A DNA stretch of 64,000 nt from Owenia fusiformis. Its lineage: Eukaryota; Annelida; Polychaeta; Sabellida; Oweniidae. The position numbers and the translations under genes were made by a program. The notes below the pieces were generated by a model. That model saw only the letters and a list, made by a program, of their open reading frames with translations, had not been told where the DNA came from and searched no databases. This document shows positions 51,031 to 63,693 of this stretch, piece after piece (the stretch's first letter is position 1; every line of letters starts with the position of its first letter). The stretch covers positions 13,414,196 through 13,478,195 of the forward strand of contig CAIIXF020000004.1 of the NCBI GenBank assembly GCA_903813345.2. The letters run 5' to 3'.

Positions 51031-51231
51031 ATGGTGCTTTTCAACGAGATTCAAGTTACTCCGTGTAAATCAGTATGGCAGAGCATCATATCTAAAGGCA
51101 TGGATGATATAAAAAGTGAAACGGGTGTGACGATAGATGTTCATAAAAAAACATTGACTGGAAATTACTACCAAATAAAATGTGCAGGAAGTTACATAGC
51201 AAAGAAGAATCACACAAAAAGTAAAAGCAAG
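51031..51231 (+). CDS. DTX3L: Gene 2 exon 1: start and KH-like module
   Basis: The ATG has an ideal context (TTACCATGG). There are 67 codons to a GTAAAC donor, ending in phase 0. The pattern [20 protein letters not shown] followed by TIDVH and YYQIKCAG is the helix-strand layout of the degenerate KH-like modules in DTX3L and PARP14 N-termini. It joins in phase to the exon at 56668, across a 5.4 kb intron full of elements; that link is inferred from phase and content. Confidence 0.55.
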
Positions 51232-63200: not shown

Positions 63201-63693
63201 TAACGATAAATTACAGCATCCCCAGTGGTAACCAAGGGGTAATTATATCTAAAAAATATTTTCAGAAAATAATATTCGAACAAATTGAAACTAGAGAAAA
63301 GATGCGCTTACTTATACTTTGACAATCTCCTACAGATTTAGTAAGGTGAATTCCCCTCTGTTTCTCCTTCAATAACATCATTTCATGGCAAATCTTTTTA
63401 TAGGAGAATTTGAACGGATGTCAACATTTTTGTTTCTTTTTGACTGCATAGTTTCATTGTCGTGTCCAATTCAATTATTTTTAGGAGTGTCACCCAAATC
63501 CAGGGAGGTCATACGCGGGGACAAACAGGAAAGCATACTTGCCAGATAACAAGGAAGGAAATGAAATATTGGATCTACTAAAAGAAGCATTTGATGCTCG
63601 TTTGATTTTTACTATAGGGCAGTCGAGCACGAACAACCGTGAAGGTATAACATGGAATGATATACATCACAAGACGAGAATAGACGGAGGACC
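51031..63693 (+). CDS. DTX3L: Gene 2: DTX3L-type E3 ligase with macrodomain, two RINGs and DTC domain (five exons seen, 3' end outside)
   Basis: Five exons join in phase to give about 1,054 residues before the window ends. The order is KH-like module (1-110), coiled coil (about 187-222), long acidic/polar region, KH-like modules (about 450-600), macrodomain (about 620-785), RING 1 (845-884), RING 2 (900-937) and DTC domain (from 964). RING 2 through KGNQP to WNDIHHKT follows vertebrate DTX3L closely. The family ligates ubiquitin and, through the DTC domain, acts on ADP-ribose and NAD-linked ubiquitin. In vertebrates DTX3L works with the macrodomain protein PARP9 in interferon and DNA-damage responses. 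The macrodomain in the same chain is the unusual part. About 35 residues of the DTC domain are missing off the right edge. Confidence 0.85.
52743..53420. repeat. Direct duplication, about 155 bp copies 520 bp apart
   Basis: CTTATCCCAAAGAT, GGTTGCATAATCATGATTTT and GTAATCGTTTCTTT recur in the same order from about 52743 and about 53263. Copies are similar but not identical. Confidence 0.6.
53416..53626. mobile_element. 211-bp MITE
   Basis: TTATAACATACCTATGATGA at the left and its complement at the right form a 24-bp TIR. The core contains GCGGGCCAA and CCAATCA motifs. Non-coding. Confidence 0.65.
53632..53743. mobile_element. 112-bp MITE or hairpin
   Basis: TTATGTCACTATCGTGGCA and its exact complement bracket a 74-bp core. 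It directly follows the 211-bp MITE. Non-coding. Confidence 0.6.
53996..55630. mobile_element. 1.6 kb TIR element hosting a MITE
   Basis: The left end GGCTAGTCGATCTATGTGGA with ATGTATCGTG further in is mirrored at 55570-55622. TIR homology is about 70-90 bp with a few changes. It hosts the 9-bp-TSD MITE at 54472-54976. No transposase was recognised. Confidence 0.5.
54472..54976. mobile_element. MITE, 9-bp target duplication family, copy 2
   Basis: TIR TAGCCTTGCCCAAGTCGGT and its complement. TGAAACTTG at 54463-54471 and 54977-54985 is a perfect 9-bp target duplication. Homologous to 977-1793 at both ends, with a shorter interior. Confidence 0.8.
55680..56232. mobile_element. Half copy of the palindromic element
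   Basis: Matches the left half of 48951-50510 (without its MITE) up to the centre, ending at CACGTCCAAGTATGGGATAA. It may be a solo arm left by recombination, or the ancestral unit before inverted duplication. Confidence 0.55.
56287..56641. repeat. Inverted pair just upstream of gene 2 exon 2
   Basis: CATACTTGAGTGGGTTTGGG at about 56302 is mirrored at about 56611-56638. The interior has TATCTGCCCGC phrases and an AATTTTT-rich stretch. It ends 27 bp before the exon 2 acceptor side. Confidence 0.55.
56668..56890 (+). CDS. DTX3L: Gene 2 exon 2: KH-like region continued
   Basis: The AG acceptor is TTGCGTTTATAG and the donor GTAAGT. Phase is 0 in and 1 out, with 74 codons. The translation ([20 protein letters not shown], then [18 protein letters not shown]) gives two helical segments typical of the KH-like modules. 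The frame has no internal Met that makes a sensible start, which supports it being an internal exon. Confidence 0.65.
56945..57488. mobile_element. 540-bp MITE in gene 2 intron 2
   Basis: TIR about 65-70 bp: ATTATGTGTTTGAGGTCTA at the left and its complement at the right, with CAAATCACAGATGTTGAG shared further in. High identity between the ends suggests recent activity. Non-coding. Confidence 0.7.
57851..59692 (+). CDS. DTX3L: Gene 2 exon 3: coiled coil, KH-like modules, first part of macrodomain
   Basis: There are 614 codons between the TTTCAG acceptor and a GTAATG donor, phase 1 in and 1 out. An exact heptad array (KIKTQED units, 57985-58068) is a 21-bp tandem repeat and should form a coiled coil. 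A long Ser/Asp/Glu-rich stretch follows, then helix-strand modules ([20 protein letters not shown] onward). The macrodomain starts near 59290 with [20 protein letters not shown] and [14 protein letters not shown], the ADP-ribose-binding Asn and glycine loop, and runs to IPAISSG at the donor. A read-through stop lies just after the donor. Confidence 0.85.
59907..60470. mobile_element. 560-bp MITE in gene 2 intron 3
   Basis: AACATTTGATTCTGATTGGTC at the left faces GACCAATCAGATTCAAATG at the right. CAAATGCAACATTTTGACGT faces its near-complement at 60390-60418. The interior is diverged and non-coding. Confidence 0.6.
60500..61640. repeat. 334-bp tandem repeat in gene 2 intron 3, about 3.4 copies
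   Basis: TTTAGAGCTAGTTCAC recurs at 60761, 61095 and 61428. Each unit contains two diverged half-units around GGCGG(C/T)CATCTTGCATTC and GTTTTTAGATAAATCTTGT, so the array has a higher-order structure. Units 2 and 3 are nearly identical. Confidence 0.75.
61939..62640 (+). repeat. Three tandem 236-bp units that include the exon 4 splice acceptor and exon start
   Basis: Units start at 61939, 62175 and 62411. Each contains TAACTATTATTAGGTATATT (acceptor plus exon start) and about 90 bp of coding sequence. AG acceptors end at 62077, 62313 and 62549. Units 1 and 2 have GGGTGTCCAC where unit 3 has GGGTGCCAC, so only unit 3 keeps the macrodomain frame. Use of either upstream acceptor gives about 30 altered residues and a stop. 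Confidence 0.85.
62550..63238 (+). CDS. DTX3L: Gene 2 exon 4: end of macrodomain, tandem RINGs, start of DTC
   Basis: There are 230 codons, phase 1 in and 0 out, with donor GTAATT. It opens with [20 protein letters not shown], the last strand and helix of the macrodomain. RING 1 is C-x2-C-x11-C-x-H-x2-C-x2-C-x12-C-x2-C (CNQC to CLKC). RING 2 is [13 protein letters not shown] and CPVC with KGNQP after it, as in Deltex proteins. The DTC domain begins with [20 protein letters not shown]. All metal ligands are present in both RINGs. Confidence 0.85.
63485..63693 (+). CDS. DTX3L: Gene 2 exon 5: central DTC domain
   Basis: The AG acceptor is at 63483-63484 and the GTAAGT donor at 63694. Phase is 0 in and 2 out. 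The translation has [39 protein letters not shown] and [14 protein letters not shown]. These are the conserved ADP-ribose/NAD-binding pieces of the DTC fold, including the His pair. The final DTC exon, expected to start with a YGYPD-like motif, is beyond the window. Confidence 0.85.

Follow-up and report, generated by a model that had tools for sequence, protein, structure and literature searches.

A predicted macrodomain-RING-Deltex chain in the annelid Owenia fusiformis, a candidate single-chain counterpart of the PARP9-DTX3L complex

Are a macrodomain of the kind found in PARP9 (BAL1) and the ligase module of its partner DTX3L (BBAP) joined in one protein in an annelid? This question is raised by a gene of Owenia fusiformis on the + strand of a 64,000-nucleotide stretch of its genome (assembly GCA_903813345.2, contig CAIIXF020000004.1, positions 13,414,196 to 13,478,195; hereafter the window, numbered from its first letter), where it runs from position 51031 to the window end. 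A first, sequence-only reading had described this gene, here called the fusion gene, as joining an ADP-ribose-binding macrodomain to a DTX3L-type ligase with tandem RINGs through an in-phase exon 3/exon 4 join, and as a "Rosetta Stone" for the PARP9-DTX3L pair. Our analysis confirmed that the macrodomain and the unit formed by the RING and the Deltex C-terminal domain (DTC) are encoded in one predicted chain. We propose, with a probability of about 0.72, that this is a single-chain, ADP-ribose-directed ubiquitin ligase of the DTX3L type with its own macrodomain 1 (MD1) of the PARP14/PARP9 type, and thus a counterpart of the PARP9-DTX3L complex. Citations qualified by "in part" refer to a portion of the article.

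The exon 3/exon 4 junction

The gene model comprises five exons bordered by AG and GT whose phases fit one another (0, 1, 1, and 0 at exons 2 to 5; Table 1), and the spliced translation up to position 63691, counted in whole codons, consists of 1054 codons with no stop. Pfam placed Macro at amino acids (aa) 646 to 768 of the spliced chain (E = 1e-26), RING at aa 899 to 937 (1.4e-7), and DTC at aa 945 to 1054 (2.3e-42), bearing out the claim that macrodomain and RING-DTC share one chain. The G+C content of the coding part is 40.7%, versus 34.6% for the window, and exon 3 is enclosed in a stop-free run of 639 codons, which has a chance of about 2e-21 in a simple independent-base model of this composition. 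Exons 1 and 2 had no significant Pfam match, and phase and splice borders are the sole support for the joins from exon 1 through exon 3. The DTC, and hence the fusion gene, runs on past the window end. Among the 15 Pfam families that matched the 1054-aa chain up to that end at E <= 1, there was no WWE domain, a type that DTX1, DTX2, and DTX4 possess, and the same chain had no Pfam match to an ADP-ribosyltransferase (ART; PARP catalytic) domain or to an RRM.

Intron 3, a phase-1 intron bounded by the 59692/62550 join, splits the macrodomain inside loop 2 (SG|IFG). Exon 3 ends with AISS plus one base, and the first two bases of exon 4 complete a glycine that is followed by IFGVPQD, the rebuilt codon lying within the conserved SSG-IFG loop. 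The alignments to PARP14 and PARP9 crossed the junction unbroken, and the residues after it aligned with the C-terminal part of PARP14 MD1. The first 50 of these residues scored 49 against PARP14 MD1, a value reached by none of 5000 shuffles (best shuffle, 46), and 39 against PARP9 MD1, where 13 of 5000 shuffles scored as high. When 142 AGs from about 59700 to 63400, each giving at least 8 residues in phase, were compared as acceptors, the one at 62550 ranked first with a score of 55; the next two (34 and 28) were later AGs in the same exon and frame, and the best elsewhere scored 26. The macrodomain end sits at the start of the RING exon, and therefore the fold itself supports the 59692/62550 join. 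Because exon 4 carries the macrodomain end together with the two RINGs and the first part of the DTC, macrodomain and ligase are in one chain unless the assembly is wrong.

Intron 3 also contains two repeat arrays (334- and 236-bp spacing) and five AATAAA motifs, as might be expected if a KH-macrodomain gene ended in this intron and a separate RING-DTC gene started in exon 4, the two having been merged by annotation or, through the repeats, by an assembly join. We consider this very unlikely, since exon 3 alone stops within macrodomain loop 2, with the remainder supplied in phase by exon 4, and the window sequence is free of any N.

The 236-bp array triplicates the 5' end of exon 4. Its last copy holds the exon 4 acceptor (62550) in the correct frame; in the two upstream copies, whose acceptors precede 62078 and 62314, a frameshift leads to an early stop, and their use would give truncated proteins. 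This arrangement would suit a decaying or alternatively spliced gene copy in which the decoy acceptors divert splicing toward a truncated macrodomain without ligase. Such a copy is nevertheless improbable, all coding exons in the window being open and the 62550 copy being in the correct frame. The other array, at 60621 to 61588, also consists of three tandem copies.

Type of the macrodomain, the ligase, and the region ahead

A sequence search of the PDB returned PARP14 3vfq as the top match of the macrodomain (8.6e-44, summed over two stretches, MD1 and MD2), and gave 1.1e-30 for PARP14 3q6z (MD1) and 1.1e-27 for PARP9 MD1 (9qyd). The top three distinct sequences were two of PARP14 and one of PARP9, all aligned over MD1, and the next macrodomain class in the PDB set, MacroD-like (2.7e-17), trailed by ten orders of magnitude. 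Identity amounted to 43.1% with PARP14 MD1 (72 of 167 aligned residues) and to 39.2% with PARP9 MD1 (65 of 166). Hydrolase activity of macrodomains has been linked to Asn/Ser plus Gly near loop 1 and to a hydrophobic-aromatic pair in loop 2, and among human macroPARP macrodomains, all these residues together with activity are found only in MD1 of PARP9 and PARP14 (PMC10221186). The window macrodomain has the loop 1 Asn and Gly (NAAN...HGGG, with the motif at aa 647) and, as its loop 2 pair, Ile-Phe (SSG-IF-G). Since the published hydrolase residues are kept, it is predicted to be an ADP-ribosylhydrolase, which may erase as well as bind. The macrodomain of the sequence-only reading is borne out and refined to the PARP9/PARP14 MD1 type, and a possible erasure is to be added to its proposed binding.

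Both RING motifs of exon 4 display all eight zinc ligands (CX2CX11CXHX2CX2CX10-12CX2C). The second is over the Pfam cut-off; the first, at 20.4 bits versus a cut-off of 27, owes its label mainly to the ligand pattern, and the tandem RING described earlier is to be read with this difference between its two halves. The second RING directly precedes the DTC, which is the arrangement of the Deltex family. PDB matches of the RING-DTC were DTX2 (1.5e-33, RING and DTC), DTX3L (5.5e-32, DTC), and DTX1 (1.2e-25). The identity of the DTC was highest, among these three human chains, with DTX3L (53.9%, 62 of 115 aligned residues), followed by DTX2 (49.6%) and DTX1 (42.9%); a bacterial DTC (L001, described below) was nearly as close, at 53.3%. 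A histidine at aa 1046 (63665 to 63667) aligned with the catalytic histidine of the DTC (DTX3L H707 and DTX2 H582), and the window end cuts the DTC after position 109 of the 133 profile positions. In its C3HC4 pattern, the second RING agrees with the RING-H of DTX3 and DTX3L, which we take to be C3HC4. The latter has been called a nonclassical RING-H and set apart from the RING-H2 of DTX1, DTX2, and DTX4 (PMC8424196, in part). Given the macrodomain and the absence of an RRM match, the ligase appears to be DTX3L-like, that is, of the DTX3/DTX3L type and not DTX3L proper. The C3HC4 RING and the DTC identities favor the earlier assignment to a DTX3L-type ligase; it is weakened by the closeness of the bacterial DTC and by the lack of resolution of a long-branched DTC tree of 18 rows (the window, 3 human, and 14 bacterial). 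The structure predicted for the exon 4 product had a pLDDT (predicted local distance difference test) of 35.8.

Ahead of the macrodomain, aa 456 to 592 showed no significant sequence match in Pfam or the PDB, nor to the neighboring PARP14-like gene. A single-sequence model of this region reached a mean pLDDT of 43.8, with about 59 to 73 in its second half, which forms strand-helix-strand-strand-helix. Its neighbors in the PDB were weak (1115 at E <= 10 and none at E <= 0.001). Seven of the 50 best of these 1115 were labeled KH, namely, BICC1, MEX-3C, FMRP, hnRNP K, and three of vigilin; most of the top listed neighbors were pre-ribosome chains, some labeled Krr1, presumably a KH protein as well, and others were not KH (DCoH2, DUF77, and designed proteins). 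MEX-3C and hnRNP K also serve as comparators for the KH domains of human DTX3L (PMC11460948 and PMC10810221, both in part). The model and its neighbors point to probable KH-like domains ahead of the macrodomain. Farther upstream in exon 3, four near-identical 21-bp units (57985 to 58068) specify a charged repeat, KTQEDKI, which may form a coiled coil.

Table 1. Features of the fusion gene and of its neighbor in the window
Feature	Position	Strand	Basis
Exon 1, N-terminal 67 aa, ATG as putative start	51031..51231	+	Open frame, GT donor, in phase
Exon 2, aa 68-141	56668..56890	+	AG/GT borders, in phase
Exon 3, with a charged repetitive stretch, a region of low complexity, two probable KH-like domains, and the beginning of the macrodomain	57851..59692	+	639-codon open run; Pfam Macro
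Two probable KH-like domains just before macrodomain, aa 456-592	58792..59202	+	Low-confidence model, structural neighbors
Macrodomain, PARP14/PARP9 MD1 type, aa 628-805, split by intron 3	59308..62698	+	Pfam; PDB sequence matches
Three tandem copies of 236-bp unit that spans the exon 4 acceptor and reaches 94 bp into exon 4	61936..62643	+	Repeat comparison, junction test
Exon 4: macrodomain end including loop 2 Ile-Phe, both RING motifs, DTC start	62550..63238	+	Phase, Pfam, junction test, ligand pattern
First RING-like motif, aa 845-884, all eight zinc ligands	62816..62944	+	Ligand pattern; Pfam zf-C3HC4_3 4.7e-4, below cut-off
Second RING, C3HC4 pattern, aa 900-937	62981..63094	+	Pfam zf-RING_2, over cut-off; ligand pattern
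DTC over exons 4 and 5, with intron 63239-63484 between, incomplete at window end	63116..63693	+	Pfam; PDB matches DTX2, DTX3L, DTX1
Exon 5, last coding exon inside window	63485..63693	+	AG acceptor, in phase, GT at 63694-63695
PARP14-like gene: RRM exons and KH-region exon	4130..10661, perhaps to 25123	-	Pfam RRM_PARP14_3, KH_PARP14_1

A candidate counterpart of PARP9-DTX3L

The domains described for human DTX3L are one RRM, five KH domains, the RING, and the DTC, with no macrodomain listed among them (PMC11251020, in part). The window chain resembles it in the C-terminal RING and DTC, in having no detected WWE domain, and probably in KH-like domains that precede the catalytic part, but it differs by the macrodomain before the RING, by the extra RING-like motif, and in that no RRM was found. 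With PARP9 it shares the MD1-type macrodomain and its hydrolase residues, whereas PARP9 has two macrodomains and the window chain one, with no ART found. KH domains ahead of MD1 are presumably also the order of PARP14, whose MD1 is the best match of the window macrodomain. Unlike the window chain, PARP14 has three macrodomains, a WWE domain, and an active ART, and it has no RING-DTC (PMC13224862 and PMC11251020, both in part).

PARP9 and DTX3L together resemble PARP14 plus a RING-DTC, and no natural fusion is mentioned in the portions concerned (PMC11251020 and PMC13224862, both in part). With a macrodomain of the PARP9/PARP14 MD1 type, the window chain makes a plausible "Rosetta Stone" for the pair. 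Reports of PARP9 are confined to jawed vertebrates, and those of PARP14 cover cnidarians, molluscs, and vertebrates (PMC10221186). Because of this restriction of PARP9, an animal without it would need another route to bring MD1 to DTX3L, and the window chain would provide one. DTX3L is annotated in Aplysia, with no domain detail given (PMC8195618, in part). In our literature search, no title or abstract start among the matches listed described a macro-Deltex chain; the macro-RING-DTC architecture may already sit unremarked in animal protein databases.

In the mechanism that we propose, the KH-like modules would dock the protein onto nucleic acid or partner PARPs, and the macrodomain would bind mono-ADP-ribose on targets and, judged from its residues, could remove Glu/Asp-linked ADP-ribose. 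E2~ubiquitin would be brought by the RING, while the DTC would bind ADP-ribose and activate its 3' hydroxyl, as known for human Deltex proteins, such that ubiquitin would be placed on ADP-ribose or on nearby targets. The ADP-ribose may be supplied by a PARP14-like enzyme. Deltex RING-DTC attaches ubiquitin to the 3' hydroxyl of ADP-ribose via a His-Glu pair of the DTC (PMC7615817, in part), and the ubiquitin-ADP-ribose (Ub-ADPr) adduct is removed from nucleic acid by MD1 of PARP9 and by that of PARP14, a coupling within PARP9:DTX3L that the authors called paradoxical and possibly a form of proofreading (PMC10810221, in part). A writer and an eraser in one chain might likewise proofread or time Ub-ADPr marks, a role that has also been put forward for the MD1 of PARP9 within the human complex, and a single protein might thus read an ADP-ribosylated target, write on it, and erase from it. 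That macrodomain and DTC also share a chain in bacteria suggests that the pairing is useful.

A simpler role would be that of a reader or recruiter: the macrodomain would only direct the chain to mono-ADP-ribosylated targets, hydrolysis being absent or irrelevant, and the RING-DTC would ubiquitylate ordinary lysines. DTX3L-PARP9 has indeed been reported to read ADP-ribosylated targets (PMC10955461 and PMC11460948, both in part), and residues alone do not prove hydrolase activity, which has reportedly been lost recurrently from mammalian PARP14 MD1 (PMC10221186, in part). We nevertheless regard a pure reader as somewhat unlikely, since the window macrodomain retains the residues of loops 1 and 2 that are described as necessary for hydrolysis.

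Several points weigh against a ligase that both writes and erases in one chain. The free Ub-ADPr or Ub-NAD product resisted the ADP-ribose hydrolases tested (PMC7615817, in part), and erasure would therefore be limited to marks on a target. The window ends before the last part of the DTC and before the positions equivalent to DTX3L Y719 and the catalytic E733 (E608 in DTX2), which lie 12 and 26 residues after H707 (PMC11460948, in part). The 18-row DTC tree, which mixes human and bacterial rows, does not resolve the kinship of the window DTC with DTX3L, and the KH-like domains depend on a low-confidence model. Finally, the chain is predicted from genomic sequence, and the repeats beside the key junction leave some room for assembly error.

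Bacterial chains, origin of the fusion, and gene neighborhood

Relatives of the fusion gene were sought with single sequences, which reach close relatives only. In viral_contigs, these scans found no relative of the RING-DTC or of the macrodomain, and in genome_contigs, the scan with the RING-DTC found one locus, in Endozoicomonas cretensis. Among neighbors that look by eye like ordinary bacterial genes, it encodes a 1040-aa protein (L001:5487-8609, + strand) with Pfam matches to Macro (4.2e-15, in two stretches) and DTC (7.3e-53) and none to RING. Searches within the Endozoicomonas family detected DTC in 12 of 37 genomes, compared with 0 of 14 control genomes. By Pfam, the 14 bacterial DTC proteins (L001 and 13 others, L016-L028) fall into six with Macro and DTC, three with RING and DTC (in one of them with the RING below cut-off), and five with DTC alone (one just under the DTC cut-off). 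The pairing of macrodomain and DTC is thus not unique to the window: it recurs in L001 and five other chains of this family, which differ from the window chain in being bacterial and, by Pfam, in having no RING.

The macrodomain of L001, the one of these six that was typed, differs from that of the window. Its best PDB match was at 5.1e-5, and PARP14 and PARP9 were absent from its 18 matches at E <= 10. Because this macrodomain is not of the PARP14 type, the L001 fusion looks independent of the window fusion. Derivation of the E. cretensis chain from a gene like that of the window was considered and rejected, as BLASTP showed only a shared 16-residue motif and no PARP14 or PARP9 match was obtained at E <= 10 in the PDB. 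The mixing of human and bacterial rows in the DTC tree would be compatible with multiple transfers from animals, but its long branches call for caution. The bacterial DTC proteins resemble host-interaction proteins of eukaryotic origin and may have been acquired repeatedly.

As to its origin, there is an even chance that the fusion arose independently in this lineage and is uninformative on the ancestor of PARP9 and DTX3L. PARP14-like genes have often been duplicated, frequently close together on a chromosome (PMC4245714, in part). One PARP14-like gene sits in the same window as the fusion gene, and the bacterial macro-DTC chains, one of which was tested and had a macrodomain of another type, could also be cited for an independent fusion. 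What speaks for a shared origin is that KH-like domains followed by an MD1-type macrodomain correspond to the order in PARP14, and that vertebrate DTX3L keeps KH domains, which would fit the loss of a macrodomain.

A more specific scenario, which we hold to be doubtful, is that the window chain is a surviving ancestral form. DTX3L would then have arisen from a PARP14-like KH-MD1 front joined to a RING-DTC; in invertebrates, the DTC as writer, MD1 as eraser, and the RING as E2 recruiter would have stayed together in one chain, and jawed vertebrates would have lost the DTX3L macrodomain and regained it via PARP9, a PARP14 duplicate lying head-to-head with DTX3L. If this were true, Ub-ADPr signaling with built-in erasure would predate interferon. 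Interferon induces the PARP9-DTX3L-PARP14 module, for which antiviral roles have been proposed. For the origin of the coupling between ADP-ribosylation and ubiquitylation, the fusion chain offers a concrete, testable path from PARP14 to the PARP9/DTX3L pair. A natural chain of MD1 and RING-DTC would also be a reagent for asking whether one machine writes and erases Ub-ADPr. The repeated encounter of macrodomain and DTC, both in marine bacteria and in an animal-type gene, suggests selection for the coupling itself.

The PARP14-like gene and the fusion gene are divergently oriented and lie about 40 kb apart by their confidently assigned parts. RRM_PARP14_3 matched the former twice over the cut-off (7.1e-9 and 3.4e-7) and twice below it (0.00095 and 0.0018), and KH_PARP14_1 matched its 548-aa exon weakly (0.017, below cut-off). 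The scanned stretches of this gene yielded neither an ART nor a macrodomain; positions 1 to 4126 were viewed by eye only, and the gene may continue beyond position 1. In human, PARP9 and DTX3L are head-to-head, with PARP14 in the same locus (PMC13224862 and PMC8424196, both in part), an arrangement that the PARP14-like neighbor recalls in a suggestive way only. Stretches at 22331 to 23134 that look RRM-like by eye had no significant Pfam match. Rfam gave nothing at gathering thresholds in the window, and Pfam nothing at E <= 0.1 in one forward frame each of 25000 to 39999 and 36000 to 50999 (stops read as X); the other frames were left unscanned, and an intervening gene is possible. A 600-codon open frame at 23321 to 25123 (- strand), rich in Gln/Pro/Gly repeats and with no Pfam match, is possibly the N terminus of the PARP14-like gene. 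Another open frame, of 117 codons at 37731 to 38084 (+ strand), has a weak, unrelated Pfam match as its only one and looks by eye like the tail of a retrotransposon reverse transcriptase.

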